DNA from: an uncultured Prevotellaceae bacterium
GTDB taxonomy: Bacteria > Bacteroidota > Bacteroidia > Bacteroidales > Bacteroidaceae
Assembly: GCA_902776545.1 (NCBI GenBank)
Contig: CACYQO010000015.1
Location: 1 to 64,000 of the forward strand
Direction of reading: 5' to 3'
Length of the DNA stretch: 64,000 nt
Shown here: positions 44,332-64,000 of the stretch, in pieces
How the letters are laid out: every line of letters starts with the position of its first letter
How positions within the stretch are numbered: position 1 is the stretch's first letter
Translations under genes and position numbers: made by a program
The notes under the pieces: model-generated
Databases searched by the model: none
What the model saw: the letters and a program-made list of their open reading frames with translations, nothing else
What the model was told of the DNA's origin: nothing

Positions 44332-44337
44332 GAAGTT

Positions 44338-44586: not shown

Positions 44587-44626
44587 GTGCAATCAGTGGG
44601 ATCCGTGTGAGTTCTCGCCCCCTCTC

Positions 44627-44940: not shown

Positions 44941-44959
44941 GAGTGATATAGTGGTAACG

Positions 44960-44991
44960 AACATATGTTAAATGGCTCACGAACATATGTT
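44960..44991. repeat. Two AACATATGTT palindromes 22 bp apart
   Basis: Perfect palindromes at 44960-44969 and 44982-44991 share the same 10 + 12 geometry as the other two arrays. Confidence 0.85.
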
Positions 44992-45021
44992 CATCTGAAT
45001 ATTCAGCCTTGAACCAAAGAG

Positions 45022-45420
45022 TGAACGGACATGGGCCGGAAAAAGACCGAACACACCAGACCCCGCGTCACGACTGAACGGGTATGCTCCGGAAAAAGGC
45101 GATGTCGATGGCATCAGTCCGTCCATCCTGTGAACGGGTATCGGGCGGAAAAGAATTGATACCCAAGTCCGATTGAACGGATATGGGGCGGAAAAAAGTC
45201 GCTTCCGTGCCTCCGTTTTGGAGGTGAACGGGTATCAGCCGGAAAAATGTCGTTTCAATGTCCATAATGTTCACTTTTCGTTCTTTTTCAGAATGAATAG
45301 ACATCAAAACAAGGCTTTTTCATGCCTCATTGGGGCTTTGAATAGCCCCCGGAAAGTGAACGGGTATGGGGCGGATTACGCAGCCGTGCGAAGACAGATT
45401 GCACGGATATGGAGAGCCGA
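45022..45420 (+). repeat. Dispersed degenerate repeat TGAACGGGTATGGGGCGGAAAAA
   Basis: Copies start near 45022, 45075, 45131, 45174, 45225, 45357 and (weak) 45400. The TGAACGG and CGGAAAA ends are best kept. Spacing varies from 43 to 132 bases. Confidence 0.85.
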
Positions 45421-45447
45421 GAATGCACATCTGCATCCTCGGCTCTC
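45412..45447 (-). terminator. Long hairpin after the radical SAM operon
   Basis: A 16-base stem (GAGAGCCGAGAATGCA with TGCATCCTCGGCTCTC, one mismatch) and a 4-base loop lie 19 bases after the stop of the last operon gene. No T run follows, so it may stabilise the mRNA end rather than terminate by itself. Confidence 0.6.
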
Positions 45448-45465
45448 GGTGTATATAAGTCCTAA

Positions 45466-45966
45466 TTACTGCTCTACTGCAAAATGAAGAGATTCGTATG
45501 ACTTATACTGATATATCAGCTTTAATGCTAATTCTGCAGCGATTCCATCGGCCTTCATACGTGCAGATTCAACGGTATCTGATTCTTCTATAATAAAAGA
45601 AGATTGGAATATGATATTTCCCGCATCAACATGTTTGGTCATTTGATGTAATGTGACGCCACTTTCTCGTTCTTTGTTATGGAATATTTTATCCCAGGGA
45701 TTCAGCCCTGGATATTTTGGTAGAAGCGAAGGATGTATATTAAAAGAACCTATGTGACATTGTTCAAAAATTCTCTTTGGAAGAATGTAAGGGCATCGAT
45801 ATGTAATTAATAGGTCTGGAATGGAATCATGAAAAATACGCTCTATCGCTTCTAATACATTTACACCTAATGTTGCACAATCAATCGTAAGGAGTTTGAT
45901 TGTTTTCTCTCGCTCAAGTGCCGCTCTTACAGCATTGGTTGAGGTAGTGACAAGCAAAATAAACAT
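45466..45966 (-). CDS. Formyltransferase-fold protein
   Basis: This 166-residue protein has the formyl-transfer core seen in Met-tRNA and glycinamide ribonucleotide formyltransferases: NIHPSLLPKYPGLNPW (catalytic His in the HPSLLP loop) and GVTLHQMTKHVDAGNII (with a conserved Asp). It is shorter than Fmt and lacks the C-terminal OB domain. It starts 1 base after the stop of the B12 radical SAM gene and is the last gene of the operon. I infer that it formylates the peptide, an amino sugar or another small amine. Confidence 0.75.
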   Translation of the reverse strand: MFILLVTTSTNAVRAALEREKTIKLLTIDCATLGVNVLEAIERIFHDSIPDLLITYRCPYILPKRIFEQCHIGSFNIHPSLLPKYPGLNPWDKIFHNKERESGVTLHQMTKHVDAGNIIFQSSFIIEESDTVESARMKADGIAAELALKLIYQYKSYESLHFAVEQ

Positions 45967-45967
45967 A

Positions 45968-47305
45968 TTATCTGTCTATGTAATATTTTACGTTATATTG
46001 TCTGTTATTAATTTTTTCTATGTCCTTTATTAATCTTTTAAAATCTTCATCATTCATTTTAGAGACATTAACAACCGGACATCCATCCTTCAGAAATTGT
46101 ACAGGATCAGGGATGATGCCACTCTTACAGGCTCGCTTGTAGAGCACGGAGCCAGGGAAAGAGATGATCATGTCTGCAAATAATTGATAGCGCTTGCGGT
46201 TCTGAAGATACCACTGAAGTGTAGAACGTGCAGCGTCGTAAGTTTCCTCTGAGTCACCAAAAATGACACCGGAACGTGATTTAAGACCTGCTGTTCTCAA
46301 CATTTCCAACGCGCGTTCTATCTGGCACCGAGTGATACCCTTTCTCATACTTTTCAGAACCTTGTCGTTGGCACTTTCCACTCCCACGAATACATAGCGG
46401 CAGCGAGTGATCTTCAGTATATCAACCAACTCTTGGTCGATGCTATCAATGCGCAGTTGTATAGACCAGTCGACATTGTATTTCTCCATACGTTGACAAA
46501 ACGCCCTAACCCGCTCATTATCTGTTGCGAAAAGTTCTTCTCGTAGAGCGATGTAGGAGATGTCGTAATGGCTTACCAGATAGTCTATCTCAGAGAATAT
46601 AGAGTCCAGCGAGCGCTGGCGGTATTTTGTTCCTGATGGATGGAAGCAGAACGTACAGTTATACTTGCACGAACGTCCTCCGATAACCGATACCTGAGAA
46701 TACTTCTTTCCCTCGTCGCTTAAATCAGGGTTCTGTTCAAGATATGTCTGATAGTTGAAGCCCTCATAGTCGGGAAAAGGCAGACTATCCAGATCCATTA
46801 TCTCTGACCGGGGAGGAGTCCTTTCCAAAATGCCGTTCTTGCGGAAGATGATGCCCTTGATTGTTGTTAGAGATTTGTCATCCGATAATGCTTGCAGCAG
46901 TTCTAAAGAGGTCTGTTCCCCCTCTCCAATGATACCACAGTCGGCATCGTCGAAAGCTTGCATCGTCACCTCTGGGTCGGCAGTCATAATCCCTCCTCCT
47001 ACGATGATAAACATTTGCGGGTTGATGGAACGTGCATATCGAACAATGCGTGCCAGATCCAGATACTCGCCAGACAATCCCCCTACTCCTATTACTTGAA
47101 TATCATTGGTATGGCAAAAATCGGCCAAGGCACGGTACTCATCACCAGCTACATGGTTCAGGTTTAATGTGTGAACCATGCAGACCCTTTTCTGTTTCAA
47201 AAAAGCCGAGACATATAGAATGCCCATAGGCATAACGTAGTGTCCACTTGAGCCATATACCTTGTAGCGTGGTATAACGAGTAGAATATTTATTCTCCGT
47301 TTCAT
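45968..47305 (-). CDS. B12-binding-domain radical SAM enzyme
   Basis: This 445-residue enzyme has an N-terminal cobalamin-binding-type Rossmann domain (about 1-145; GVGGLSGEYLDLARIVRY, IVGGGIMTADPEVTM) and a radical SAM core with the cluster cysteines in CKYNCTFC (Cys213, 217, 220). No DxHxxG motif is evident, which is usual for this class. Members methylate or rearrange unreactive carbons; in peptide systems they often methylate. It begins 3 bases after the M42 peptidase stop. Confidence 0.85.
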   Translation of the reverse strand: MKRRINILLVIPRYKVYGSSGHYVMPMGILYVSAFLKQKRVCMVHTLNLNHVAGDEYRALADFCHTNDIQVIGVGGLSGEYLDLARIVRYARSINPQMFIIVGGGIMTADPEVTMQAFDDADCGIIGEGEQTSLELLQALSDDKSLTTIKGIIFRKNGILERTPPRSEIMDLDSLPFPDYEGFNYQTYLEQNPDLSDEGKKYSQVSVIGGRSCKYNCTFCFHPSGTKYRQRSLDSIFSEIDYLVSHYDISYIALREELFATDNERVRAFCQRMEKYNVDWSIQLRIDSIDQELVDILKITRCRYVFVGVESANDKVLKSMRKGITRCQIERALEMLRTAGLKSRSGVIFGDSEETYDAARSTLQWYLQNRKRYQLFADMIISFPGSVLYKRACKSGIIPDPVQFLKDGCPVVNVSKMNDEDFKRLIKDIEKINNRQYNVKYYIDR

Positions 47306-47308
47306 TAT

Positions 47309-48373
47309 CTAAGATCTCTTTTCTTCCAAATGCTGCCAGGGCACAAATACTGGCTCAGGCATCTTGTCCAATCGTTTCACCAAAGCCACCACAACCTTTA
47401 CAGCAGCTTCAATATCACGAATGTCGCACATCTCGCTATGGGTATGCATATAGCGAAGCGGTAGATTGACGTTTAGGGTGGCTATGTTTCCCATGGTTCC
47501 TAACTGGGCGGCATCAGTGCCTCCAGAAAGGTTCCTGCTGACAGTTGGCTGCAGGGCGATACCTTGTTTAGCGGCTTCTTCAACGAGCATGTTCCTTAAG
47601 ACAGGATTAGAGTCGGCATTCATGTTGATACCGACACCTCCCCCCAGTTTCAGCAAACCTGTTTCTGAATGAGCGGTCGGAATATCTGTTGCATAGTCAA
47701 CATCAAGGATTATAGCAACGTCAAGCGGTTTGCGGCAGGCCTTAATGCCACGTGTACTAATCTCCTCTTGTACAGAAGATATAGCCAAAACTTCAGCGGA
47801 TAACGAACACTCTTTCAGTTCGCGTAGTGATTTCAACATCACATATAGCCCTAAGCGATCATCAAGAGCCTTCGAGACGATACGATATTCCCCTAAACGG
47901 GTAAAAGTGGCATTAAACACGACAAAATCGCCTAACCTGACCATACTTTCTGCCTCTTGACGTGATTCGGCTCCAATGTCTATCCATAAATCACGGGTTG
48001 CCATTAGAATACCTTTTTCTGTACCATTATCGTTCATCGGGTCACTTCCTACAATGCCATCAATGGGGCCTTTGTGGGTGAGTACTTTTACTTGGTGTCC
48101 GTCAAGTGACGTGGCACGCAGTCCACCTATTTTCCTAAATCGAAGAAGACCGTCATCGGTTATACAGTTCACCTGCATACCTATCTCGTCTGCATGTGCG
48201 ATGATTCCTATTTTTAATGGGCCAGGGTTGTTCCATGAGGCATACAGATTTCCAATGGCATCACCTTCACATACCATCCGGATTTTGCAGCATTCTTCTG
48301 CGACCAAGCGTTGTACGTCCCACTCATGGGCTGTCGGCCCATAGGCACTACACAATTTTTCTAACAATTCCAT
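47309..48373 (-). CDS. M42-family metallopeptidase
   Basis: This 354-residue protein starts at ATG 48373 (MELLEKLCSAYGPTAHEWD), 4 bases from the stop of the gene before it. Metal ligands and catalytic residues are visible in IAHADEIGMQV, the VQEEISTRG pair of Glu, ILDVDYATD and the late YMHTHSEMCDI. The family are zinc or cobalt aminopeptidases acting on short peptides. In this operon it may trim the leader or recycle the product. Confidence 0.88.
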   Translation of the reverse strand: MELLEKLCSAYGPTAHEWDVQRLVAEECCKIRMVCEGDAIGNLYASWNNPGPLKIGIIAHADEIGMQVNCITDDGLLRFRKIGGLRATSLDGHQVKVLTHKGPIDGIVGSDPMNDNGTEKGILMATRDLWIDIGAESRQEAESMVRLGDFVVFNATFTRLGEYRIVSKALDDRLGLYVMLKSLRELKECSLSAEVLAISSVQEEISTRGIKACRKPLDVAIILDVDYATDIPTAHSETGLLKLGGGVGINMNADSNPVLRNMLVEEAAKQGIALQPTVSRNLSGGTDAAQLGTMGNIATLNVNLPLRYMHTHSEMCDIRDIEAAVKVVVALVKRLDKMPEPVFVPWQHLEEKRS

Positions 48374-48377
48374 ATCA

Positions 48378-49676
48378 TTATTCTTTGAGTAATATCGGAT
48401 AAACATGGTTGACTGGTAATCGTTGTTCAACCTTGTAATAAATTATCTGCGCGACAAACTGACGGGTGAAATCGCAGACCACACGGCGATAAGATTCGTC
48501 ATAGCTTGCATATTGATAAAAGCATCCGCCACCACAATTCCATTTCACCTTACAGGACTGGCATTCTGCTCGTTCATATACGTCGTGAGCCTTCAGTTCA
48601 TTATAGCGGGTCATGTCAAAATGTATATGGTTGTACATATCAATCCATCCATAGCGAGTCTGGGAAAACAGATGGTCACGAGGCGAGGCAACGCAATAAC
48701 AGCCAGAAAATTGTCCGTCAGCGGTGAGGCAGAGTTCGCCTGGGCAAGCCCGTTCAAGGGGGTAAATGGTGCGCAGATAGACGAATGACGTGAGGCTGAT
48801 TTTCGCTTTTTCGGCACGACGAAGACACTGCACAAATTGTTTGGTGTAGAGATTGTAAAAACGTTCCATCTCCTGGGGGGTAGCAAATAACTGCTGTCCG
48901 GTTACCGGTTCAAACATGGCGTTTTTGACCTGATCGTATTCTTTTAACAGCCATTCAAACGTTTCTTCCATCCGCTCGACATTAGCCAGAGTTATCGTTA
49001 CATTGATTTGCACGTTGATACCACTGTCAAGCAGTCGTTTGACATTCTTTTCCACGATATCGTAATTCTTACGTTGCAGATTCTGAATGTCGCGTAAAAG
49101 CTCGAATGAAACAGAAACGTCGATATTGTGCTCCCGCAGAAAGTCAATAGAGGAATTGTCAAGTATGGAACCGTTAGTGATAATACGGTGTCGAATACGC
49201 AAATGACGCTTTATGGCTTGCTCCTCAGCATATAATATACCACTTTTCACTAATGACCAGGAGAGCATGGGTTCGCCTCCTCCCATATAGGAAATCGTAA
49301 GCGGTCGGCCAAAGGTGTCCGGCTTGGAACCAATGAAATAATCGATGGCAGCCTTTAGATGAGCCTCTTTCAGATACGACCCATTTCGACCTGCAGCTGA
49401 ATAGCAGTAGCTACATGAAAAATTGCATACGTTGTTGGGCAGGATAGTAAGCAATGTGTAGTCAGCAGGAGCTAATACTTTTTTTTGACGGTTTATCGGG
49501 GCGTAATCGGCCAGCGCACCAAACACATCAGCAAAACGACCATCAGTGAGGTAAGCTTCCAATTGACTATTTGAGGCAACGGCATAGCGGCGGGCGATGG
49601 GCGAATAGAAAATAGACAATTCTTTTTCCCACTCATAACGGTATATAGCGTATCTTTCCAACCACTCCTCGCTCAT
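48378..49676 (-). CDS. Radical SAM/SPASM peptide-modifying enzyme
   Basis: This 432-residue enzyme has an N-terminal domain of about 80 residues with a YSPIARRYAVAS core, a radical SAM barrel with CNFSCSYC (Cys84, 88, 91) followed by YSAAGRN, a GGGEPMLSW glycine motif and a C-terminal SPASM domain (ECQSCKVKWNCGGGCF) for auxiliary iron-sulphur clusters. Such enzymes make thioether or C-C links in RiPPs. It overlaps the preceding radical SAM gene by 4 bases. Confidence 0.9.
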   Translation of the reverse strand: MSEEWLERYAIYRYEWEKELSIFYSPIARRYAVASNSQLEAYLTDGRFADVFGALADYAPINRQKKVLAPADYTLLTILPNNVCNFSCSYCYSAAGRNGSYLKEAHLKAAIDYFIGSKPDTFGRPLTISYMGGGEPMLSWSLVKSGILYAEEQAIKRHLRIRHRIITNGSILDNSSIDFLREHNIDVSVSFELLRDIQNLQRKNYDIVEKNVKRLLDSGINVQINVTITLANVERMEETFEWLLKEYDQVKNAMFEPVTGQQLFATPQEMERFYNLYTKQFVQCLRRAEKAKISLTSFVYLRTIYPLERACPGELCLTADGQFSGCYCVASPRDHLFSQTRYGWIDMYNHIHFDMTRYNELKAHDVYERAECQSCKVKWNCGGGCFYQYASYDESYRRVVCDFTRQFVAQIIYYKVEQRLPVNHVYPILLKE

Positions 49677-50929
49677 CTTGTTACGTATTTTAATGTCTCA
49701 ACAATCATCTGTCTCATAAAACTGCAATAGACAGGCATTCGCTCTGCCAGTACTTTTCTTGCCAGGAGACATCCCCCACCACAGTGCCACTGGGCAATGC
49801 AGCCGCTACAGTCTTTATAGAGTAGGGCATTTTGACTCATCAGCCAGTTGTATTTGTCTTCGTCAACAATAACTCCACTGGAATCAATATGACCATATTG
49901 GAATAGGTTGTAGTGAGGTTCTTTGTCAGAAGATATACGGGAACAGGCCGACAGAATGCCGTCGGGGGTGACGACTAGTTTACCAGGACAGGCTCTGAGT
50001 TTACGACAGCCCACGCTGTTAAAAATAGTGTTACTGATTTCAATTCCGTAACATTCGCCCAACGATCTTGCCTGAAAGAAACCATTCACGAAATCCTTAT
50101 AGAATGCTGTTTGTTCTTCTATGGTCTCAAACAGTTCTCGGCTCAGTACAGCTTCAAAGGCTGCGCTCATTACTTGCGGGAAATCCTTGTGAAGCGTTTC
50201 TACCATTTCACATTGGCGGTTGACGTTCAGTGGAGTAATTGTCGACCGAAGGCCAAAAGGCAGACCGGCATTGGCTATGCGTAGTAACGTGTCTGCTACA
50301 GTGTCAAAGTGGGATCGTTGCTTATCGTGTACATCTTTTAATATGTCGAACGAAAGAACCATTTCTACTTCATGATCCTTCAGAAAGTTGATTTGGTCGT
50401 CAGTGAGTGTCGAACCATTTGTCACCAAGCCAATAGCCAAGGCGATTTCTTGCTTTATTGCTAACTTCTCTGCATAGTTGACGGCTTCCTGAAATTTGTC
50501 GAACGACAATAAGGGGTCGCCACCGCCTGAAAACACAAGCTTCAAATGCAGTCCTCTGCTTCGTTTCACGAAAAAATCTAAAACCTGATGTATCCGGGCC
50601 GTATTTAGTTCTGCTTTCGATCGTCCCAGTGCAGAGTAGCAGTAAGTACAAGAGAAATTGCAACGCTGGTTTAACAGAATGGTCATCTCGTCGATGTCAA
50701 TCGGTGAAGAACAGACCAACACAGAATCTTTGGCTCGCAACATATTCCATGCATCAACGCTTTCCTGCGTTGATAGCAACCCAAAGGCTGCTTTTTTTAT
50801 ATTCTCAGCCTCTTCGCTGCTGGTGCGGAGTGCCAATCCGGCTAATGGAGCGTATATTAGAACTTCTTCCTCTCCGATTAATTCAAAGAAGATGTTTTTT
50901 TTAGAATTTTTCCGTTTCTTGTTAGCCAT
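49673..50929 (-). CDS. Radical SAM/SPASM peptide-modifying enzyme
   Basis: This 418-residue enzyme has the same modules: an N-terminal YAPLAGLALRTS domain (about 20-55), radical SAM CNFSCTYC (Cys90, 94, 97) with YSALGRSK, GGGDPLLSF and a SPASM end (CSGCIAQWHCGGGCL). Its first 52 bases overlap the end of the channel-like gene before it. Confidence 0.9.
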   Translation of the reverse strand: MANKKRKNSKKNIFFELIGEEEVLIYAPLAGLALRTSSEEAENIKKAAFGLLSTQESVDAWNMLRAKDSVLVCSSPIDIDEMTILLNQRCNFSCTYCYSALGRSKAELNTARIHQVLDFFVKRSRGLHLKLVFSGGGDPLLSFDKFQEAVNYAEKLAIKQEIALAIGLVTNGSTLTDDQINFLKDHEVEMVLSFDILKDVHDKQRSHFDTVADTLLRIANAGLPFGLRSTITPLNVNRQCEMVETLHKDFPQVMSAAFEAVLSRELFETIEEQTAFYKDFVNGFFQARSLGECYGIEISNTIFNSVGCRKLRACPGKLVVTPDGILSACSRISSDKEPHYNLFQYGHIDSSGVIVDEDKYNWLMSQNALLYKDCSGCIAQWHCGGGCLLARKVLAERMPVYCSFMRQMIVETLKYVTR

Positions 50930-52977
50930 TCCAGAACCTCTTCTATATATTCTTTCAATCTCTTGTCGCGTTTGAGAAATGATTCGCCACCTGCTTTTCT
51001 AAGTTCATCATAGGTGAACAATTCATTAAGGCAGCCGTTATCCTCATCGTTTTCTGAACTCGGACTATTAGTTGGTATATTTCCAGCTGCAATATAAGAG
51101 CCCACGTATATTCTTTGTAGAATATCCTTTGTAATGTCTCCCAGAAGAGCATCCCTTCCTGGATCTTCTTTATTAGGTTTCTTGTCAGGATTTTCAACAA
51201 CACTCAATTCCAACTCTTGTAAGAGGATTGATAGACCTTGAGCACAACTTATATGAGTACGCCTGACGTTATTATATGGACTTGCTTCCCATCGTGCTCT
51301 TGCATCATTGGTTTCTTTTTTAAAGACTTTTTCCCAATAATTGAGGAATGACCGTTTATCGCTCTCTGTTTTTTTAAGAAAACCTTTATTTATTCCATGA
51401 AGGAAAAAAAGTTCTTGCGCTATCTCCAATCCTAATGAGAAGGAAATGTCATTATTGTGAAATCCGAAAAAGTGAATGTTACCGAAACGTTTGTTGTTAG
51501 CATGGAATCTCTGCTCTAAAGTGTAACTATTGTGGTCGAATTGTACTAAAATTGGCACGCCTTTTTTGTACACTTCTGATGGAAGATGAGTGGCAAGCAT
51601 GAAATTGTTGGTATTGTTGTCTGAGCAGATAACAATATATGGTCGTTCTTTCTCATTAGAAACTGTGTTCTTTAGATCATCCATTGTCTCTTTAGCGTAT
51701 GGACTTTGAATGTTATAGTCAATATCCATATCAAAAACTCTCCCGTTAATATTAGGATATCGCCGCAGAAATCTGTTCTGGGCTTCTTGATTTTCAGTAA
51801 ATATGCTTATCATTGTATTAGCACAATTTGAAAAATGTGCCCATTTTAAGGCGGCCTTAAGCACCTCTTGTCCCATTGCATTGAATCCCAATATATATAG
51901 GTGGAGAGGCTTCTTTTCCGAAATATTTGAAAGTCCGGGATAATTATTTTTATCGCATAGTAGTTTGTTGCCCCATACATTGGCAATGCAAAGTTCATAA
52001 TAATTGAAAGGGTAGAAATAGACATGGGAGACATCTAAATCCTTATTAAAAAAGCACATGAAATAGGCATCATCATAATATGACACATAAATGGGAAGCG
52101 GCCTTTTACGTTTTTTCATTTGAAAAGACGATCGATAGATAAGGTCTGCGATATTCGTATTGTTTATGTCACTATTCTCTATGGGTTCGTCCCCAATAAC
52201 AACTACTTGCTTGCACTTTGATAAATTGAGCTGTTTTAGGACATTGTATTTTTCTTCGTCCAATTGTTTTACATTGGAACTATTCGATGGCTTCTCGCTG
52301 GTACTATGAGAGTGTTGCCAGGGGAAATGCCATTTTTTTTTCTTTACAGGAATCCAATTGAATATATTATCTCTATAAATAATTAAATTATTGTCATCTA
52401 TTACACCCATTTTCCGTATTCGAGCCCTTGTTTTTTCGGCATCTTCAGTGGTTAAGACAAGAGTAATCCTTTTAATTCTCTTTTTTACCATTTTGTTGTG
52501 TTTACCTTTTTTTTCAAGCATGAGATGCCTCATGGCAGGCTCCAACAACTCATTAGTACCAATAATAATATTGTGGCCATGTAGATGTGAATAGCGTACT
52601 TCTCCCTTGGTATAAGAATCAACTCGGCGCTGAATGATATTTGAAATGGTAGAAATAAGAATACCACCGAAACAGACAGCTCCTGCGAGAGACACGATTA
52701 AATCGTAGATATTTCTATCCATATTTAATTTGGGATCTACATTTAATGCTTGACTAAACACACCAAACAGTTTGAAAAGTTTGTCGTTGTCTAAAGTAGG
52801 AGATAATACATAGTAAATAAGTACTAACAATACAAACACAAAGGCCACGAATAATATAAGCAGGATAATCTGACGCCCAGTTTTTTTCATAGCAAAGTCT
52901 ATCCTATTGACCTTAATGAAATGATTAATGACAAAGAGCAGAGTCAGAATAAAAAACAGAATAATTATAAATATCAT
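50878..52977 (-). CDS. CASTOR/POLLUX-like ion channel with RCK-type domains
   Basis: This 699-residue membrane protein has hydrophobic segments at about 1-21 and 35-57, a short re-entrant stretch (LFKLFGVFSQALNVDPKLN) and a third segment (about 90-117). The large soluble part begins GHNIIIGTNELLEPAMRHL, a Rossmann-like RCK start, with a second such unit at LYILGFNAMGQEVLKAAL. This layout matches plant CASTOR/POLLUX and bacterial relatives. It has a poly-Lys region near 210. Its position among radical SAM genes is unusual; I infer either export or self-protection. Confidence 0.7.
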   Translation of the reverse strand: MIFIIILFFILTLLFVINHFIKVNRIDFAMKKTGRQIILLILFVAFVFVLLVLIYYVLSPTLDNDKLFKLFGVFSQALNVDPKLNMDRNIYDLIVSLAGAVCFGGILISTISNIIQRRVDSYTKGEVRYSHLHGHNIIIGTNELLEPAMRHLMLEKKGKHNKMVKKRIKRITLVLTTEDAEKTRARIRKMGVIDDNNLIIYRDNIFNWIPVKKKKWHFPWQHSHSTSEKPSNSSNVKQLDEEKYNVLKQLNLSKCKQVVVIGDEPIENSDINNTNIADLIYRSSFQMKKRKRPLPIYVSYYDDAYFMCFFNKDLDVSHVYFYPFNYYELCIANVWGNKLLCDKNNYPGLSNISEKKPLHLYILGFNAMGQEVLKAALKWAHFSNCANTMISIFTENQEAQNRFLRRYPNINGRVFDMDIDYNIQSPYAKETMDDLKNTVSNEKERPYIVICSDNNTNNFMLATHLPSEVYKKGVPILVQFDHNSYTLEQRFHANNKRFGNIHFFGFHNNDISFSLGLEIAQELFFLHGINKGFLKKTESDKRSFLNYWEKVFKKETNDARARWEASPYNNVRRTHISCAQGLSILLQELELSVVENPDKKPNKEDPGRDALLGDITKDILQRIYVGSYIAAGNIPTNSPSSENDEDNGCLNELFTYDELRKAGGESFLKRDKRLKEYIEEVLEWLTRNGKILKKTSSLN

Positions 52978-52978
52978 A

Positions 52979-54319
52979 TCAGTAGGATTTAATAGTTTCT
53001 TCTAAAGATTCTCCGTCTTCAGCGTATGTATTTGCCAACCGTTCAAGTAATAGGCGCTTGCTAAAACGGCGTGTAAAGTCGCAAATCACATCAAGAATGT
53101 CATCATTGTATTGGTTGTTTTGCATCATGCAACCACCTCCACAGTTCCATTTGACAAAACAGTTGTGACATCTCGGCTGTGTATATATAGTGTTTCGCTC
53201 TATCAGATTCCTGAACTTGGTCTGGTCTATCATGAGGGAGCCATCGTCGCCAATACGTGCATAAATATAGTCCTCGTAGCGTTGTTCAAATGGTGACGAA
53301 ACCTGATGGCAAATGGTAACGGTGCCCTCAGGGGTGATACAGAACTCACCTGTACAGAACCGTTCGACTACCATATCAAGATTTCGAAGCGGTGTGCATC
53401 CAAGATTTATTCCATAATGAACGGCCAACTGTCTGGCTTCAAGGAAACAGTTGTAGTAAGAATCATAGAAATGACGTGTGAAAACGGGGTCTGCAAATGT
53501 TTCAGCTGATGTAATGGGGTCAAACAATACGGTTTTGATTACGGGGAATCGGTCATGCAGTTGCTGAATCATTTGCGGCATGAGTTCTACGTTGTCAGGT
53601 GTTATCATTGACCGGACCATTGTGGTGACACCTCCCCGGCAAAGCATATCAATACCACGGCACACGTTGGCATATTGTCCGCGCTGTAGGTTCTGTATTT
53701 CCTCTAAAATTTCAAATGATATCCGGGGACGTACGTCATATCGGCTGAAAGTATCAACCATATCCTGACTGATGACGGATCCGTTAGTTACTATGGTTGT
53801 CATCATTCTTATACCTTGTTGGCGAGAACGCATATCGGCATACTCTATGCCGAATTTCACCAAATCCCAAGAAATGGTTGGTTCTCCGCCTCCTAGATAG
53901 CTGATGGCAAGCTGGTCTGTCCGAACCCGGTTGGAGTCAATGAAATAGTCAAGAACTGTCTTTAAATGCTCTTTCTTCATTACCTTTTTGGAACGTCCTT
54001 TCGCTGAGAAACAGTACGAACATGAGAAGTTACAGATGTAGTTTGGAAGTACATACATCCGCAGAAAATCGTCTACCCGTCTGACTGTACTGTCGCGTTT
54101 GTCAACAGGTGTTCCAATAGTAAGGGAATCAACGATAAGAGCCATGTCACTCGTGACTTCGTTAGGATGATCTATCAAGTATCTCAACTGTCGGCACTCT
54201 GCGTCAGATGCGATGAGCATATTGCCTGCTACAGGAGCGTAAACAAGGAACACGTCGTTACGACCATACTCTTCAGTAAGTGGTAGCTGGTATATATTAT
54301 ATTTCTGAAAAGAATCCAT
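52979..54319 (-). CDS. Radical SAM/SPASM peptide-modifying enzyme
   Basis: This 446-residue enzyme has YAPVAGNMLIAS (about 27-38), radical SAM CNFSCSYC (Cys96, 100, 103) with FSAKGRSKK, GGGEPTISWD and SPASM (CHNCFVKWNCGGGCM). It lies 5 bases after the double radical SAM gene and 1 base before the channel gene, so it is in the same operon. Confidence 0.9.
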   Translation of the reverse strand: MDSFQKYNIYQLPLTEEYGRNDVFLVYAPVAGNMLIASDAECRQLRYLIDHPNEVTSDMALIVDSLTIGTPVDKRDSTVRRVDDFLRMYVLPNYICNFSCSYCFSAKGRSKKVMKKEHLKTVLDYFIDSNRVRTDQLAISYLGGGEPTISWDLVKFGIEYADMRSRQQGIRMMTTIVTNGSVISQDMVDTFSRYDVRPRISFEILEEIQNLQRGQYANVCRGIDMLCRGGVTTMVRSMITPDNVELMPQMIQQLHDRFPVIKTVLFDPITSAETFADPVFTRHFYDSYYNCFLEARQLAVHYGINLGCTPLRNLDMVVERFCTGEFCITPEGTVTICHQVSSPFEQRYEDYIYARIGDDGSLMIDQTKFRNLIERNTIYTQPRCHNCFVKWNCGGGCMMQNNQYNDDILDVICDFTRRFSKRLLLERLANTYAEDGESLEETIKSY

Positions 54320-54324
54320 AGAAC

Positions 54325-56922: not shown

Positions 56923-56957
56923 TTCTTCATAATTATTGGTAGATGGAAATGATGAAT

Positions 56958-56990
56958 GGTCGTGGACAAAACAATGATTCGTCCACGACC
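56958..56990 (-). promoter_or_regulatory. Intercistronic hairpin between precursor and first maturase
   Basis: A perfect 10-base stem, GGTCGTGGAC with GTCCACGACC, has a 13-base loop and sits 12 bases after the precursor stop. There is no T run. It could partly stop or stabilise the transcript so that more precursor than enzyme is made. Confidence 0.75.
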
Positions 56991-57002
56991 CTGTCAATAC
57001 TC

Positions 57003-57095
57003 TTAGTCATTGCAACGGCAACCACCACCAAAGCAGTCGCAGCATCCTGCAGAGTTCGACTTTGCGTTCTTAACCTTTACAACTTTCATAGTCAT
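57003..57095 (-). CDS. Cysteine-rich RiPP precursor peptide
   Basis: This 30-residue peptide has a basic N-terminal part (MTMKVVKVKNAK, then SNSAG) and a C-terminal core CCDCFGGGCRC followed by ND. Five cysteines (positions 18, 19, 21, 26 and 28) and a GGG run make it a natural substrate for radical SAM maturases. It sits in the operon just before five radical SAM/SPASM modules. I know of no family with exactly this core. It has no double-glycine cleavage site in the leader. Confidence 0.85.
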   Translation of the reverse strand: MTMKVVKVKNAKSNSAGCCDCFGGGCRCND

Positions 57096-57145
57096 TTATA
57101 ATTAAGAATACCCCTACTCGTTTCTGGCTTTTCGGGTTCCGCCAT
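57092..57145 (-). other. Possible 17-codon frame overlapping the precursor start
   Basis: MAEPEKPETSRGILNYK ends in TGA that overlaps the precursor ATG as ATGA. It could couple translation of the peptide to the operon. It may also be chance; I give it low confidence. Confidence 0.3.
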
Positions 57146-57149
57146 TTTA

Positions 57150-58196
57150 TTATTTTGTCAGTTGTTTCCTCAGCAAATCTGCTGTTTTCTTGGACTCAAT
57201 AGTATCTTGGTCCAGAATCTCCTTAATACGGTCATTAATTTGTTTTTTCATGAACCAGTACCCGGCAGCCCACGCAATAAGGCAGACAACAGCTACAGTA
57301 AAATTCACAACGAATAAAGCTACAATCGCAAGAATCCAGCCCCATTTCATTATCTTTACCTGTTTAATCTTGTCTGGCATTTCTTCCTCAACAATCTGCT
57401 CGGGAGACTTGCCTGTCCCTCTTTCACCAGGAACTTTACAATTTACAAGACCTTTTTTGTCAGCCATCATTGCCATATAATAAGTCTGACCTTCGAATTG
57501 ATATTCAAGAACATAAAACGGAATAAGTACGGGAATAGGATCTTCCGTCACGCTATTACGAGAAGTAACTGCAACATCTCTGGAATTGAAATCCTGCCTA
57601 TTAAATATACTCATCGACTGCTGAATAACTTCAAGTGGGATAATGTCGAGGGCCACATAAGCTACAGCTGTGTTTTTAGACATATCGTTAGCTAAAGGAA
57701 GCAGGTAGTTATCAACAATTTCATTTCCGTATTTCATCCATGCAGAATGAGGATTGCCAGAATTATCTCCTTCTATCACGCCTCCTGATGCAGATACGTA
57801 TGATTGCGGTTGGAAATTGTCACTTTCAAATCCTATTTTGCAGAATTTCCTTGCCCACTCTGGTGTAGCCTGGTTGTCGTTAATAACGAGAATGTCGAAA
57901 TCTGCCTCAGGGAAACTACCAGAGTAGGGAGTTCCATCTTTGATATTTACCTCCTGATTGTTCACCGTGATTTTGGGTGAGCCATCTACTTTAGCAGACC
58001 ATGCTCCTTCAGCTTTTCCCTTATAGCGATTACCCCATAGATAAACAAGCCTTAGCTTTCTAGGATCAATGCTTTCAATGGCACCTTTTGGCCATCTGTA
58101 ACTCCCAAGCTTTTGGGCATTAAGATTAATAAAATCTTGCTGAGTGACTTGCGGTACTGCGACTTGCACTTGTTGAGTGATTTTGCTTTCGTCCAT
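57150..58196 (-). CDS. Unknown protein with two C-terminal membrane segments
   Basis: This 348-residue protein has a soluble N-terminal part of about 285 residues, then WILAIVALFVVNFTVAVVCLIAWAAGYWF (probably two closely spaced membrane helices) and a charged tail. No known domain is recognised. It sits between the coiled-coil protein and the precursor, so it may bind the peptide or anchor the maturation complex. Confidence 0.6.
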   Translation of the reverse strand: MDESKITQQVQVAVPQVTQQDFINLNAQKLGSYRWPKGAIESIDPRKLRLVYLWGNRYKGKAEGAWSAKVDGSPKITVNNQEVNIKDGTPYSGSFPEADFDILVINDNQATPEWARKFCKIGFESDNFQPQSYVSASGGVIEGDNSGNPHSAWMKYGNEIVDNYLLPLANDMSKNTAVAYVALDIIPLEVIQQSMSIFNRQDFNSRDVAVTSRNSVTEDPIPVLIPFYVLEYQFEGQTYYMAMMADKKGLVNCKVPGERGTGKSPEQIVEEEMPDKIKQVKIMKWGWILAIVALFVVNFTVAVVCLIAWAAGYWFMKKQINDRIKEILDQDTIESKKTADLLRKQLTK

Positions 58197-58217
58197 AATT
58201 GTAATTTGATTAAATTG

Positions 58218-59321
58218 TTATTCTGATTTTGTGATGACAAGATACTCCGTTTTGCTCCAGAATGAATTTATATCCTTAATCACTAATATTTTTGTTTTAT
58301 TAATAATGCGAATATCATAGCTATCAGCTGGAATGTCTGAAATTACATCAAAATCAGACTTCTCACTTCCAAGAAGAATGCTTTTATCTTTTCCACTCAA
58401 GAAAGCAAACAAATCTTTATTGGGGTTGGAGGTTACTTTTAATCCACCAAACAACCCTCCAGAAGTAACAATTCCTTTTTCTTTGAGTTCATCTTCTGAA
58501 CCAATAATAATATAGAATGTTTTGTTTGCTATTTTTTTCCCGTCTGAACCCTTCTCAGGATCATCTTCATGACCATCTTCATGACCATCTTCATGACCAC
58601 CTCCTGGGGGTAATTCACCTAATTTCTTATTTATCTTTTCTATTTCGTGGGTACATTTGTCTATGGACTCTTTTAATTCTTTCAGCATTTTTTTGCTTGT
58701 GTTTATTTCAGTTGTCAGAGAACTCAACTTAATATTTAGTTCACTAATATAATTTTCGATTTTCGTCTTTTCTTTGTAATAATCTCCAGAGAGTATTTTG
58801 TCGTATTTTGAAACATAGTCTTTCAAACTCTCAATTTTATCTTTCAACTCTTTTTGTTCCTTTGTAAGAGCGTCGATTTTTGCTCTTACATCATCGTATT
58901 TATTATTAAGAATGTTGACATATGTATTATGCTCGTCAATCCAATTTGTTAGATTAATCTGGTTATTTTTTGTATTCTTGATAGTGTTATTGTGATTCGA
59001 AATTGTCTGATTATAATTATTGACAAGTTTATTGACAGAATTGAACTCCTCTTGTATGTTGATATTTGTGGAACTGATGTTCGTGATGTCGTTATTACAT
59101 ATTCCTATTTGTGTAATACAGACACCAATAAACTCAGCTGCATTTTTGGGCTTTTCTTTATCCAGCTCGTCAATATACTTTTGACGGTCACAACTTGTCA
59201 ATGGGTTTAAAAAAACATCTAACATTCTATCTGCAATACTCCCCTTACAATCTTCAAGCACGCTAATGATTATGCCTAACACAACCATAAACCCAACAAT
59301 CTTATATACAATCTTTTCCAT
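58218..59321 (-). CDS. Membrane-anchored coiled-coil protein
   Basis: This 367-residue protein has one N-terminal membrane segment (about 8-24), a long coiled coil (about 70-235), a repeat HEDGHEDGHEDD (about 246-257) and a C-terminal beta domain (TFYIIIGSEDELKEKGIVTSGG and following). A similar end, with ELKEKGI, is found in other uncharacterised Bacteroidetes coiled-coil proteins. The repeat is encoded by three 12-base units near 58562-58600, which could vary in number. Confidence 0.65.
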   Translation of the reverse strand: MEKIVYKIVGFMVVLGIIISVLEDCKGSIADRMLDVFLNPLTSCDRQKYIDELDKEKPKNAAEFIGVCITQIGICNNDITNISSTNINIQEEFNSVNKLVNNYNQTISNHNNTIKNTKNNQINLTNWIDEHNTYVNILNNKYDDVRAKIDALTKEQKELKDKIESLKDYVSKYDKILSGDYYKEKTKIENYISELNIKLSSLTTEINTSKKMLKELKESIDKCTHEIEKINKKLGELPPGGGHEDGHEDGHEDDPEKGSDGKKIANKTFYIIIGSEDELKEKGIVTSGGLFGGLKVTSNPNKDLFAFLSGKDKSILLGSEKSDFDVISDIPADSYDIRIINKTKILVIKDINSFWSKTEYLVITKSE

Positions 59322-59331
59322 ATTAGTAACA

Positions 59332-60084
59332 TTATTTTATTGTTATGACAATAGCACTTATATTATCGTGACCACCTTTTGCTTTAGCTGCATTAACGAG
59401 GGAAGAAGCACTGCTAAATTTTCTCAGATGTGCTTCAATCTCTTCTTCACTCAGTTCGTCATACAAGCCATCGCTACATAAAAGGAACATGTCGTTCTCG
59501 AATACCTTGCCTGTTAATTCTGTGACATCGGCGAAGGCTGAATCCCCTCCTCCTCCGAGGCAATTGTAAATCATGTTGGAAGGAAGGGTGTAGTCATTGT
59601 TCTTATTCTGTACAGAATGATCTGTTGTGAGTTGATACAAAATACCGTTGCGCATTCTATAAGCCCTGCTATCACCTGCATTTACAAGATAAATTCGGTT
59701 TTCATATGTCAGCAATGAAACCAAAGTTGTTCCCATTCCATTGCATGCAGAGTTGGCATAGCCATGCTTTGTAAGGACTCTGTGAATTTCTTTTATTTCA
59801 TTGTCTAATTTGAACCTGAAATCATTGTCAATTAAATTTCCAGATAGATTCACAATGAAATCATCGAAATGATTAAGTGCCATCTCGCTGGCTATTTCAC
59901 CAGCATTATGACCACCCATACCGTCAGCAACTGCTGCAACAAATCGACCATTATTCTGTATAACGGTTGAGAAGTCATCGCTGCTATTTCGATATTTTTC
60001 ACCTGATATGAGAATCATATCCTCATTGATTGTCCGGAAGCAACCAATGTCGCATGCTAAAGATATCTGTAATTCATATTCCAT
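59332..60084 (-). CDS. PP2C-family serine/threonine phosphatase
   Basis: This 250-residue phosphatase keeps all the metal-binding motifs: INEDMILI, VADGMGGHNAGEIAS, NAGDSRAYRMR, CSDGLYDELS and GGHDNISAIVI. It is a stand-alone Stp1/PppL-type enzyme that removes phosphate from Ser/Thr. It lies 1 base from the FHA gene, so a phospho-threonine switch is likely. No Ser/Thr kinase is in the window. Confidence 0.92.
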   Translation of the reverse strand: MEYELQISLACDIGCFRTINEDMILISGEKYRNSSDDFSTVIQNNGRFVAAVADGMGGHNAGEIASEMALNHFDDFIVNLSGNLIDNDFRFKLDNEIKEIHRVLTKHGYANSACNGMGTTLVSLLTYENRIYLVNAGDSRAYRMRNGILYQLTTDHSVQNKNNDYTLPSNMIYNCLGGGGDSAFADVTELTGKVFENDMFLLCSDGLYDELSEEEIEAHLRKFSSASSLVNAAKAKGGHDNISAIVITIK

Positions 60085-60085
60085 A

Positions 60086-60574
60086 CTATTCTGACACTAA
60101 AAATTCAACATCAGCAAACTTTAAGATATCATTAACATTGATAGGAGTCGGTTTGTTTTTTTCAAGTTTCTCTCCATTGAGATACGTTCCGAAACTTGAT
60201 CCTAAATCCATAATTTGCCATATCCCTTCAACACATAATAATTGAGCATGATTACCAGATACAGAATGAAACTGCTGGAATGTATTACCATAATTCCCAC
60301 GTCTACCTATTATGGCTTCATGGCTTAAGCCAAGACGTATGTTAGCAGACATACATACAAGATGACCAGGTACATGTTTGCTGTTTGGGTTTGATGCAGG
60401 TTCACCAGCATTTATTTCTTCGGTGGGATGTCCACATTTAGCGCATCTTTTAGACTTAGCAAAAGCTCCACAGGATGGACAATAACGGAGTTTTTCTCCG
60501 CAAACATCGCAATAGACACTATCTTCGGGGATTGGAGTCTTGCAATATGGGCATTGTTTCAAATTTAATTTCAT
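60086..60574 (-). CDS. Zinc-ribbon and FHA-domain protein
   Basis: This 162-residue protein has two zinc ribbons at the N-terminus (CPYC...CDVC and CPSC...CAKC) and a C-terminal FHA domain with IIGRRGNYGN, SGNHAQL and DLGSSFGTYLNG, the phosphothreonine-binding residues. It overlaps the AAA+ gene by 4 bases. It probably docks phosphorylated partners onto the AAA+ protein. Confidence 0.9.
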   Translation of the reverse strand: MKLNLKQCPYCKTPIPEDSVYCDVCGEKLRYCPSCGAFAKSKRCAKCGHPTEEINAGEPASNPNSKHVPGHLVCMSANIRLGLSHEAIIGRRGNYGNTFQQFHSVSGNHAQLLCVEGIWQIMDLGSSFGTYLNGEKLEKNKPTPINVNDILKFADVEFLVSE

Positions 60575-63500
60575 TGTGCATTTATTATATCTTTTACCGT
60601 CAATTCTGTAAGAAGATTTTTGTCCAAATCAGGGTCGTCGAGATTAAATTCCGCAACACGATTGCTATGTGCTGTCTGTACATCCTCAAAGAAGTTACCA
60701 ACCGTTCGTGCATTGCCAAAATGCATATCTCGATTATTATATATGGATGTAAAATAGTCAAACACGGCCGACCGGGCATCGTCGGTCAGCTTATACGGAG
60801 AACGTTTAACCTTGTTTATGAATATCTCGGTGAGTTCTTCAGGAGTATAGTCCTCGAAAGTTATAGTCTTGGTAAACCTACTGCTAAGTCCTGGATTGCT
60901 ATGTAAGAAATCATTCATATTTGAACTATATCCAGCCACGATACATACAAATTTTTCTTTATAGGTTAGTAGCAATGTAAGTAAAGTGTTAAGCGCTTCC
61001 ATTCCAAAAGAGTCATTGGGACCTTGAACCAATGTGTATGCTTCATCGATAAATAGTACTCCACCTAAAGCACTCTGTACAACTTGCTTTACCTTTGGAG
61101 CCGTCTGTCCCGCATAACCTGCTACAAGGTCTTCGCGTTTTACCTCCACGAGTGTGTTTGTTGACAAAAGACCCATTGAGAATAAAACGTTGGCCATCAT
61201 CCTTGCAATAGTGGTCTTTCCAGTTCCCGGATTTCCCATAAACACATAATGGTCTAAGGCCTTGTCTATTGGACGGCCCTCCAAATCTGCAATTTTCTTT
61301 TTTAGGTTAATGGTGTTCACCATATTCCTCAATTCGGTCTTCACTCCATGAAGTCCCACAAAACCGTCAAGATTGGCGAGTATAGAAGTCGGATCAACTT
61401 TTTCTGGTCTTTCCACTGGAATATCCTCTGCCTCAATTGTTAGAAATGATTGATTATCAATTTCCTGTCCAGAACTCTTCATTTCATGCAGTCTTATAGA
61501 CTGACGCTCTACAACACTATTGAGAAGTTTGTCTATTTCACCAGCATTGCCAAAAGTTTCGCTTTTGGTATTTACCATTTGCTCAATCTTTATTTTTAAC
61601 CATCTTTCTGCGTCATCAGTGAGTATTAAGTTCTGCTTTTTTGCCTTAAGCATAAAAATCTGATAGAGTTCCTCGGCAGTATAATCATTGATGTTAAGGA
61701 AAGCTCTAAAGCGGCGTCTGAATCCCGGATTGGCTTTGTCTACAAAAGCATTCATTTCTTTAGGATATCCCGCCATTACTAGCACAAATTTTCCTGCGTC
61801 GTTGAGCATTCGGGTAATGAGAGCTCCGATGGCTTCCTTTCCTGTCTGGTCACCCTTTCCATTGGCATCAATATTCATTAGCATATAGGCCTCGTCAATA
61901 AATAGAATTCCTCCCATAGCTTCGTCTACAGCGTCATTCATAAGTTTTGCCGTCTCGTTAACATATGAGCTCTTAAGATCCTTCGCTTCTTTTTCTATAA
62001 CCTTGTCAGATGGTAATAGACCTATGGCGTGGAAGATGCTACCAAGCAGCTTGGCAACAGTCGTTTTTCCTGTGCCGGGATTACCCGTAATTACGATGTG
62101 CTGGGAACTGTTTTTGGGATCGAAAAGTCCACGTTCTATTCTTTCACGTTCTATTTCTAAAGAAATTCTCAGTTTCTTTACCGCCTCCTTCACTTCTGCC
62201 ATGCCAATCAGTTCGTCAAGATGAGCCATGGCTTCATCGATAGTCAATTCACTTGAACGGTCGCCCTCAATATCTTCTTTCGTGAAAACTCGCCTCAGAT
62301 TAGTTATGTCAAACCCTTGTGACCTTAACTCTTCTATGCGAGTGTTATGTCTTTCGATGGCACTTTCGAAGACATTCCTGACGGTACGTGCATTGGCAAA
62401 ATCTTTTCCCTTCTGATTATATATCGACTTAAAAAAAGACAGCAAATGCGGTTCATAGGCAGTTTCTACCATATATGGATGTGAACTTGCAGAGCACATG
62501 TTATTGAATATCTGGGTCAGTTCTTCTGGCTCGTAGTCTCGGAAGTTGATTGTCTTGTTGAATCTAGATTTCAGACCTGGATTCGAATCTACAAAACGTC
62601 TCATCTCGTTAGTATATCCTGCGGCTATGACAACGAATTTACCTCGATTATCCTCCATCAGTTTAAGTAGCGTGTCTACAGCCTCTTTGCCGAAACTGTC
62701 ATTATTATCCTTCACCAATGTATAGGCCTCATCTATAAACAGAATACCACCCAAGGCTTTTTGAACAATTTTGGTCACATTCTTTGCAGTTTCACCCACA
62801 TAAGATGAAACCATTTGCGACCTGTCAACCTCTACGATATGTCCGAGTGGTAGTGCCTCCAAGGCAGTGAGAACGTTGGAAAGCACTCTGGCAATTGTTG
62901 TCTTACCAGTGCCAGGATTGCCAAGGAAAAGATAATGATTTTTAAGCGTAAAACCTTCACCGTCTTCGGCCGCGACTTCAATACTATCGCCTATGCTTTT
63001 AATTTCTTTCCTGATTTCATCTATACCTACATATTTGTCAAGTTCAGAAATAGCCTCTTTATATGTTTTCTTAACATACTCCTTACCTTCAATATCTTCA
63101 GACTTAATAATCGTTGTCATCGCATCTCGTGCTTGTGATTTGTCAAAAATTTTATCAACAATTTTCAAAACGTATTTACCATTCTGTTCAAGATGCTTAT
63201 CTTTATCAATAACCATTTGCTTGTAAATACGCCTCAATTTCTCAACAGCCGCAGCCTCAACCATCATGGAATATGTCTGTGAAAGGAAATAAACAGTCAA
63301 GTTAACCAGTTCGTCAACAGAATAATCCTCTAAGTCGATTCTTTGACGGAAATTAGCTGCTATATTGCTATTGTTGTGAAGATATGCCGAAATATCCCCG
63401 TTGTCGATTCCTGTAACAACAATCATCATGTAATTTCCCTTACCCTCAACCATTGCCTTTACTTCATACAGACGTTCAAGTTCGGTAATGGCACTACCGT

Positions 63501-63963
63501 CCTTGGCATTGTGCGCTAATCCTTGAAAGGCATCAACACATAACAATGCTCCGGATATTTCATCAAGGTGCTTGTCTGCTTCATTAAGATAACTTTGCAA
63601 AGAAGTTACCGCATTAAGAACGATGGGCTCTTCCTTTGTAAGAATACCATTTTCATACAATACCTTAGCGAGAGATTTAACAATAAGACTTTTGCCTGTA
63701 CCGGAACTTCCAAATATTAGCAAATCGTTGTTCCTACTCCTTTTGATACCCCGAGCTATGTGGTTGAGATGAGTAGATATTATTGTTTTAGTGAGTTCTT
63801 TTAATGCTTTATGCCCAATTATTTCAGGCATAATAGAATCTAATTCAGCTGAATTCTGAGCGGTATTTGTGGCCAAACGTGCACCACATCTTCTACAGAA
63901 AGATGCCAAATTGCGATTCTCCTTTCCGCATATATCGCATTTTTTACTCTGTTCCTGGCACAT
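60571..63963 (-). CDS. Four-module AAA+ ATPase of the CbxX/CfqX type
   Basis: This 1130-residue protein starts with a zinc ribbon (CDICGKENRNLASFCRRCG) and has four AAA+ modules. Module 1 has GSSGTGKS (about 88). Modules 2 to 4 have GNPGTGKTT (about 351, 631 and 911), each with a Walker B GGILFIDEAY-type motif and CbxX/CfqX-like lids, related to SpoVK and to the EccA ATPase of type VII secretion. The N-terminal ribbon matches that of the FHA protein. It is the first gene of the operon inside the window; genes or a promoter may lie to the right. Confidence 0.92.
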   Translation of the reverse strand: MCQEQSKKCDICGKENRNLASFCRRCGARLATNTAQNSAELDSIMPEIIGHKALKELTKTIISTHLNHIARGIKRSRNNDLLIFGSSGTGKSLIVKSLAKVLYENGILTKEEPIVLNAVTSLQSYLNEADKHLDEISGALLCVDAFQGLAHNAKDGSAITELERLYEVKAMVEGKGNYMMIVVTGIDNGDISAYLHNNSNIAANFRQRIDLEDYSVDELVNLTVYFLSQTYSMMVEAAAVEKLRRIYKQMVIDKDKHLEQNGKYVLKIVDKIFDKSQARDAMTTIIKSEDIEGKEYVKKTYKEAISELDKYVGIDEIRKEIKSIGDSIEVAAEDGEGFTLKNHYLFLGNPGTGKTTIARVLSNVLTALEALPLGHIVEVDRSQMVSSYVGETAKNVTKIVQKALGGILFIDEAYTLVKDNNDSFGKEAVDTLLKLMEDNRGKFVVIAAGYTNEMRRFVDSNPGLKSRFNKTINFRDYEPEELTQIFNNMCSASSHPYMVETAYEPHLLSFFKSIYNQKGKDFANARTVRNVFESAIERHNTRIEELRSQGFDITNLRRVFTKEDIEGDRSSELTIDEAMAHLDELIGMAEVKEAVKKLRISLEIERERIERGLFDPKNSSQHIVITGNPGTGKTTVAKLLGSIFHAIGLLPSDKVIEKEAKDLKSSYVNETAKLMNDAVDEAMGGILFIDEAYMLMNIDANGKGDQTGKEAIGALITRMLNDAGKFVLVMAGYPKEMNAFVDKANPGFRRRFRAFLNINDYTAEELYQIFMLKAKKQNLILTDDAERWLKIKIEQMVNTKSETFGNAGEIDKLLNSVVERQSIRLHEMKSSGQEIDNQSFLTIEAEDIPVERPEKVDPTSILANLDGFVGLHGVKTELRNMVNTINLKKKIADLEGRPIDKALDHYVFMGNPGTGKTTIARMMANVLFSMGLLSTNTLVEVKREDLVAGYAGQTAPKVKQVVQSALGGVLFIDEAYTLVQGPNDSFGMEALNTLLTLLLTYKEKFVCIVAGYSSNMNDFLHSNPGLSSRFTKTITFEDYTPEELTEIFINKVKRSPYKLTDDARSAVFDYFTSIYNNRDMHFGNARTVGNFFEDVQTAHSNRVAEFNLDDPDLDKNLLTELTVKDIINAQ

Positions 63964-64000
63964 ATTCTAAATCAATATAATTTTCCTGATTGTTTATAGT

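Follow-up and report, generated by a model that had tools for sequence, protein, structure and literature searches.

The window analysed in this work is a stretch of 64,000 bases at the start of an 89-kb contig (C15) from an uncultured Prevotellaceae bacterium. Its minus strand carries a run of 14 genes between positions 45466 and 63963, with intergenic gaps of -53 to +80 bases, and every gene and part that the initial annotation had placed there was found: a precursor peptide, five radical S-adenosylmethionine (SAM)/SPASM modules, a B12 radical SAM enzyme, an M42 peptidase, a formyltransferase-like protein, a CASTOR-like channel and an FHA/PP2C/AAA+ block, as judged from Pfam matches, motifs and a fold match. 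The precursor and its SPASM maturases likely represent, by analogy with characterized enzymes, a new family of ribosomally synthesized and post-translationally modified peptides (RiPPs) served by a multi-enzyme line for cysteine cross-linking. The genes concerned are the following.

57003-57089, minus strand: precursor peptide MKVVKVKNAKSNSAGCCDCFGGGCRCND, 28 amino acids, unannotated and read directly, with five cysteines within its final 13 residues
54325-56922, minus strand: P0008, tandem radical SAM/SPASM maturase, modules a and b (two Radical_SAM stretches in Pfam; the longest open reading frame extends to TTG 56997)
52979-54319, minus strand: P0007, radical SAM/SPASM maturase, module c (Pfam Radical_SAM)
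49673-50929, minus strand: P0005, radical SAM/SPASM maturase, module d (Pfam Radical_SAM)
48378-49676, minus strand: P0004, radical SAM/SPASM maturase, module e (Pfam Radical_SAM)

Relatives of the peptide occupy the same position beside maturase genes in ten further genomes: L003 (a Bacteroides metagenome-assembled genome), L004 (a Tannerella one), G027 (locus L016), G303 (L018), G895 (L082), G919 (L085), G1112 (L086), G1261, G1264 and G1472 (L123), the last from the same genus as the window genome. Peptide and maturases thus occur together in 11 genomes, the co-occurrence by which a RiPP precursor is recognized, and the central idea of the initial annotation, a conserved precursor combined with several radical SAM/SPASM maturases in one system, is supported. 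Three forms of the core can be distinguished, CCDCFGGGCRC (window, L003 and L004), CCD[HQ]CGGC[QK]C (G027, the G303 group and G895/G919) and CCDVFGYGC[TS]CAC (G1112 and G1472), and all of them contain five cysteines; in G1472 the leader part adds a sixth. Purifying selection on the peptide is visible in the codons. The 14-codon cores of the window and L003 differ by eight synonymous and no non-synonymous changes, and the proportion of synonymous differences exceeds that of non-synonymous ones in all six pairs compared. Hence, the misgiving that the peptide might not be conserved between genomes can be set aside.

The radical SAM motif CX3CX2C and the SPASM cysteines are intact in all five modules, two of them in P0008 and one each in P0007, P0005 and P0004, and P0007 scores 34.9 bits against the SPASM model TIGR04085 (cut-off 27). 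Module a pairs with module 1 of L003 and L004, module b with module 2, module d with module 5 (in a group that also takes in G1112_2 and G1472_2) and module e with module 6. The five modules of the window correspond to separate modules in two other genomes and, since each pairs with its own counterpart there, they look non-redundant. The maturases fall into about five groups, matching the five cysteines, in six of eight loci, the other two having two maturases; overall, five to six modules are present in nine of the 11 genomes, with a range of two to six. Identity between the window maturases and their orthologues amounts to about 41-47% for L003 and 39-48% for L004. A core that hardly varies while its enzymes have diverged to about 44% identity most likely faces a fixed partner (a cofactor role, a signal or a channel ligand) rather than a diversifying target.

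The modelled structure of P0007 matches thioether-type maturases (5wgg/5why and TigE) over the full length of the fold, N-terminal domain included, and its N-terminus, three strands followed by two helices, aligns with the corresponding part of 5wgg and 8vpo. The matching part of CteB is a RiPP recognition element (RRE), and each maturase would use its N-terminal domain to bind the basic leader (KVVKVK). These matches bear on the chemistry. The enzymes might instead form carbon-carbon links, epimerize residues or oxidize cysteine to a formylglycine-like residue, leaving free cysteines to bind metal in a metal-binding or redox peptide. We regard this as unlikely, for the structural resemblance is to thioether-type enzymes along their whole length, and five non-redundant oxidizing enzymes would seem to exceed the needs of a plain metal-binding peptide.

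The distribution of the system is patchy. P0008 was found in two of 265 genomes at E <= 1e-60 and, at E <= 1e-30, in four of 393 genomes of the order; P0007 was found at E <= 1e-60 in four of 399 genomes of the family, as well as in three of 19 genomes in the family of G303 and two of 123 in that of G394 (the draws of genomes at class, order and family level partly overlap). A profile of the peptide gave 12 matches at E <= 0.1 among 395 genomes of the class, the window genome at 1.7e-16 and the next at 0.0017, and a simple pattern for short cysteine-rich reading frames around the other 11 revealed none resembling the family. NCBIfam holds no family for the peptide, and no precursor model (sactipeptide, SCIFF) matches it. 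In the open-licence literature (subscription papers being outside the scope), searched with the peptide string as well, we found no account of this peptide/maturase family. No close relative appeared among plasmids (32 records, every one below 60% identity) or viral contigs.

More distant arrangements were also observed. One of the four order-level P0008 matches is G183, which carries a distant maturase, an M42 peptidase and four different small cysteine-rich peptides of 37-41 residues (L020 4543-7627). G1342, one of the two P0007 matches in the family of G394, has a single related maturase and a cysteine-rich peptide about 62 residues long, with a very long gene next to them (L113 14832-16480), as in a one-enzyme cousin. 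A domain with no Pfam match is fused to a maturase in G027 (L016 12033-13940) and stands separately in G303 (L018 12041-12682) and G1264.

Two RNA elements flank the peptide gene.

57111-57145, minus strand: DUF805b RNA (RF02914), predicted cis-regulatory leader of the peptide (42.1 bits; gathering threshold 35.6)
56958-56990, minus strand: stem-loop between the peptide and the first maturase gene (-23.3 kcal/mol)
L004 9788-9824, L082 9469-9503, L085 314-348 and L123 14695-14729: DUF805b RNA before the peptide in other loci (Rfam RF02914)
L035 (G000:C85:9343-9378) and L036 (G000:C146:1279-1314): further DUF805b copies in the window genome, before reading frames of 172 and 268 amino acids
L123 9425-9461: further DUF805b copy in G1472, over threshold, before a reading frame of 75 amino acids

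The DUF805b RNA lies 21 bases before the peptide start. It scores above the gathering threshold ahead of the peptide in five of the nine loci compared for the stem-loop below (window, L004, G895, G919 and G1472). Weak matches precede the peptide in L003 (16.5 bits) and G1112 (14.3 bits), and no gathering-level match was found at the G027, G303, G1261 and G1264 loci. The element is not confined to peptide loci, as the two further copies in the window genome are also over threshold, with unrelated genes downstream. Rfam classes RF02914 as cis-regulatory, and no paper naming the DUF805b RNA was found in the open-licence literature; a downstream gene that recurs from locus to locus can now be assigned to this RNA, whose function thereby becomes testable.

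A stem-loop of -20.0 to -28.4 kcal/mol follows the peptide in all nine loci compared (window, L003, L004, G027, G303, G895, G919, G1112 and G1472). Among 150 random pieces taken from each of eight of these loci, 2, 0, 4, 0, 11, 0, 0 and 11 were as stable, so that the stem-loop is unusual in six of the eight (0-4 of 150) and stands out less in G303 and G1472 (11 of 150 each). It probably acts as an attenuator, giving more transcript for the peptide than for the enzymes, and would keep enzyme levels below peptide levels. The start of P0008 is more likely to be ATG 56922 than TTG 56997, a codon that precedes this stem-loop.

The remaining genes downstream of the peptide encode a predicted channel and three candidate finishing enzymes.

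50878-52977, minus strand: P0006, predicted RCK-regulated membrane channel with a GsuK/CASTOR-like fold (structure model)
47309-48430, minus strand: P0003, M42 aminopeptidase, candidate leader trimmer (Pfam PF05343, 229.9 bits)
45968-47305, minus strand: P0002, B12-binding radical SAM protein, candidate C-methylase (Pfam B12-binding and Radical_SAM; NCBIfam cut-offs unreached)
45466-45966, minus strand: P0001, short formyltransferase-like protein (Pfam PF00551, Formyl_trans_N, 73.8 bits)

The genes of P0001 and P0002 occur together in five loci (window, L003, L004, G1112 and G1472), the relatives of P0002 being 51% identical in L003, 52% in L004, 65% in G1112 and 72% in G1472, and neither has a match in the G027, G303-group and G895/G919 loci. 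The core contains Phe-Gly in all five loci with the two genes and in none of the three others (Fisher probability 1/56, computed by hand with sister genomes counted once). Given this coincidence, the B12 enzyme and the formyltransferase may act on the Phe-Gly part of the core. In G1112 (L086 6355-8046) the formyltransferase is fused to a kinase-like domain, with 28.6 bits for Pkinase (below the cut-off) and 27.3 for ABC1 (above it). The M42 gene adjoins the maturases in the window, G895, G919, G1112 and G1472, without a match in the L003, L004, G027, G303, G1261 and G1264 loci; its product would trim the leader.

P0006 has no significant Pfam match. Its model, of middling confidence (predicted local distance difference test, pLDDT, 74.4), matches GsuK (E 9e-7) and the CASTOR gating ring (E 4.6e-5), which points to an RCK channel with predicted pore helices followed by Rossmann-like RCK domains. 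At least nine homologues, its own entry included, stand among the matches listed from the protein database at E <= 1e-5. As a part of the system the channel fares unevenly: a homologue of 674 amino acids lies inside the operon in L004 and a 240-residue N-terminal piece in L003, and there is no match in the other eight loci (G027, G303, G895, G919, G1112, G1261, G1264 and G1472). Different membrane proteins, only some of them alike, take its place at L082 9692-10402, L086 8043-8945, L123 14873-16015 and L004 8978-9721. By eye, a short membrane protein beginning MAKDGD is common to L003 (12008-12229) and L086 (about 830-1000).

The base composition sets the whole run apart, as the initial annotation had remarked of its A+T content: G+C is 0.539 in positions 1-44000 and 0.412 in 44001-64000. 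The low-G+C stretch (0.35-0.46, with flanks at 0.50-0.57) spans the entire run and stops at 68-70 kb of the contig, where the operon starts. Within the run, G+C is 0.43-0.45 in the maturase genes, 0.35 in the channel gene and 0.32-0.41 in the upstream block, which hints at parts of different origin. A NusG-like gene lies on the plus strand just past the end of the run (43078-43725).

A low-G+C block and a patchy distribution are also what transferred bacteriocin clusters display, and two products of the run, P0006 and P0009, are predicted membrane proteins that could provide immunity or export for an antimicrobial RiPP. Against such a role stand the near-invariance of the core, the variation of the accessory membrane proteins between loci and the lack of a peptidase-type ATP-binding cassette (ABC) exporter among the operon genes; such an exporter is present in seven of the nine Bacteroidales RiPP clusters surveyed in a 2023 study (PMC10352776). 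A bacteriocin therefore seems to us an improbable product of this locus.

Upstream of the peptide, the run continues beyond the window edge.

57150-58196, minus strand: P0009, 348 amino acids, two predicted C-terminal membrane helices (by eye), ending 4 bases before the DUF805b RNA
58218-59321, minus strand: P0010, coiled-coil protein, part of the upstream block (only coiled-coil type matches)
59332-60084, minus strand: P0011, PP2C phosphatase (Pfam PP2C_2 and PP2C)
60086-60574, minus strand: P0012, double zinc ribbon and FHA (Pfam FHA, DZR)
60571-63963, minus strand: P0013, zinc ribbon and four CbbX/SpoVK-type AAA+ modules (Pfam AAA, four stretches)
C15:63944-67399, minus strand, outside the window: Ser/Thr kinase, 1151 amino acids (Pfam kinase domain), with seven T[IV][RD]P repeats in its N-terminal part
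C15:67401-68348, minus strand, outside the window: zinc-ribbon protein, 315 amino acids, starting at C15:68348

PADLOC returned only generic AAA+, kinase and coiled-coil matches for this block, and P0013 exceeds the cut-offs for EccA, SpoVK and CbbX all at once (681.9, 634.1 and 547.6 bits) because its four AAA+ modules add up. The initial annotation had read the locus as a single device. Extended to the 16 genes present once the contig beyond the window is counted, that reading would have threonine phosphorylation (kinase, FHA and PP2C) and AAA+ remodelling drive maturation or release of the peptide. Much in the arrangement invites it: the shared strand, gaps of at most 60 bases and common low-G+C block; the co-location of P0009 with maturases; and the kinase repeats, putative FHA docking sites by their sequence. 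Besides, the maturase operons of G027 and G1112 each have a CbbX-type AAA+ gene as neighbour, in both genomes the sole P0013-like gene at E <= 1e-20, so that one is present beside the operon in three of eight loci including the window (probability of three or more by chance about 2e-5, calculated post hoc for seven genomes, G1472, G1261 and G1264 not among them). Finally, a JAB/E2-like/ThiF/SH3 gene run takes the same place in G895 (L082 5893-9468) and G919 (L085 349-3954), ending one base before the DUF805b RNA.

The comparative evidence nonetheless makes a single device doubtful at best. Kinase, FHA and PP2C have no match in the flanks of the other ten loci (upstream sequence spans just 1.7 kb in L003 and 1.1 kb in G1112 before the contig ends), and the N-terminal part of the G027 and G1112 AAA+ genes differs from that of P0013. 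A second zinc-ribbon/kinase/AAA copy exists in the window genome on contig C84 (L050, 13.8 kb), which has no maturase gene, and a PP2C gene lies on contig C71 (L053), also without maturases. The kinase has homologues in 35 of 100 genomes of the genus (E <= 1e-30), far more than the P0008 count given above. For these reasons, the kinase/FHA/PP2C block is an independent module of the genus, placed upstream in this case, and is not conserved with the system; a single operon of all genes was rejected as the conserved unit, though retained as an alternative explanation. Together with its AAA+ gene, the block is probably an accessory to the system, regulating expression or use in this lineage. At the start of C71, an AAA+ frame contains two in-frame stops.

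P0009 behaves differently from the block. It has 52 homologues at E <= 1e-5, and seven of these coincide in longest-contig size with one of the 120 P0007 homologues listed, against a null mean of 0.22 and a maximum of 4 in 20,000 trials (metagenomes); one of the seven comes from a near-identical relative, and a contig 11,332 bases long has a P0006 homologue as well. Since homologues of P0009 and P0007 share contigs above chance, P0009 goes with the peptide among the window's close relatives, even with no match in the other ten loci or the second block copy and one in 295 genomes of the order. The gene run of G895 and G919 has the composition of a ubiquitin-like conjugation set (with PADLOC E1/E2/JAB matches for G895), and in L004 a CD225 protein lies directly before the DUF805b RNA.

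On balance, we consider it probable, by analogy, that the locus is a RiPP cluster in which the five SPASM modules act in turn on a single core of 13 residues and five cysteines, each module probably introducing one thioether cross-link, and that orthologous maturases would each keep their own site on the core. Several observations weigh against this view. In G1112 and G1472 just two maturases serve a core of five cysteines, and a strict rule of one maturase per cysteine was rejected as general for that reason; G303, L003 and L004 have six modules each, and there is weak support (90/91 in one analysis, 80/34 in another) for grouping two of the G303 modules together. A single PapB enzyme makes six thioethers (PMC9413430), so that many bridges need not require many enzymes, and the thioether assignment is itself an analogy with PapB and CteB. 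Selection tests have few sites in a core of 14 residues, and G303 and G895 differ there by five non-synonymous and two synonymous changes. The channel and M42 genes are present in some loci only, and no secretion ABC transporter or C39 peptidase was found among the locus genes, the rest of the genome not having been searched.

A bolder scheme is possible, and we offer it tentatively. With one enzyme per cysteine, five orthologous maturases would each tie off one cysteine of a frozen core, giving a peptide-derived cofactor or an intracellular signal, with the DUF805b RNA governing its synthesis. The RCK channel of the operon is a candidate partner of the product, as would be another membrane protein of the locus elsewhere, and different lineages would plug protein-modifying cassettes (Thr kinase/FHA/PP2C/AAA+ or ThiF/E2/JAB) immediately upstream of the RNA.

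Set against known systems, the locus combines familiar parts in an unusual way. The channel model resembles both GsuK and CASTOR, and P0006 itself lies outside the reach of Pfam, in the small set of sequences described above. The Bacteroidales clusters BGC1-9 (PMC10352776) share the order and the radical SAM enzymes, but differ in having GG-motif precursors, partners resembling LanC or YcaO and, in most cases, a peptidase ABC exporter; section 3.2 of that source describes no five-maturase cluster. Sactipeptides such as subtilosin A and thurincin H likewise employ radical SAM/SPASM enzymes on several cysteines, with thioethers that are established for them and predicted here by analogy, whereas no sactipeptide precursor model matches this peptide, whose core is nearly invariant. 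Sactipeptide clusters usually hold one or two maturases. Several radical SAM enzymes, B12-type included, act on one peptide in polytheonamide and bottromycin, where they are epimerases and methylases working on cores that are long or different; the enzymes that face the five-cysteine core here are SPASM paralogues. The ranthipeptides (freyrasin/PapB and SCIFF/CteB) share the cysteine-rich precursor, the short basic leader and a SPASM maturase with an N-terminal domain. Among curated models PapB comes nearest to P0005, P0007 and P0008, and CteB entries are the nearest structures, with model scores well below family level: 113.3 bits for P0005, 102.3 for P0007, 97.6 for P0004 and 190.6 for P0008 (two stretches) against the PapB family NF047865 (cut-off 340), and 94.3 for P0007 against the SCIFF model TIGR03974 (cut-off 425). 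In ranthipeptides, one enzyme installs up to six links (PMC9413430, PMC8326336). Known thioether RiPPs are described as relying on one promiscuous maturase for several links, whereas here natural selection maintains five or six separate enzymes for 13 almost fixed residues in nine of 11 genomes; if confirmed, this would yield a collection of cross-linking enzymes, each specific to its site, and a case for testing what a non-diversifying RiPP does in the Bacteroidales.

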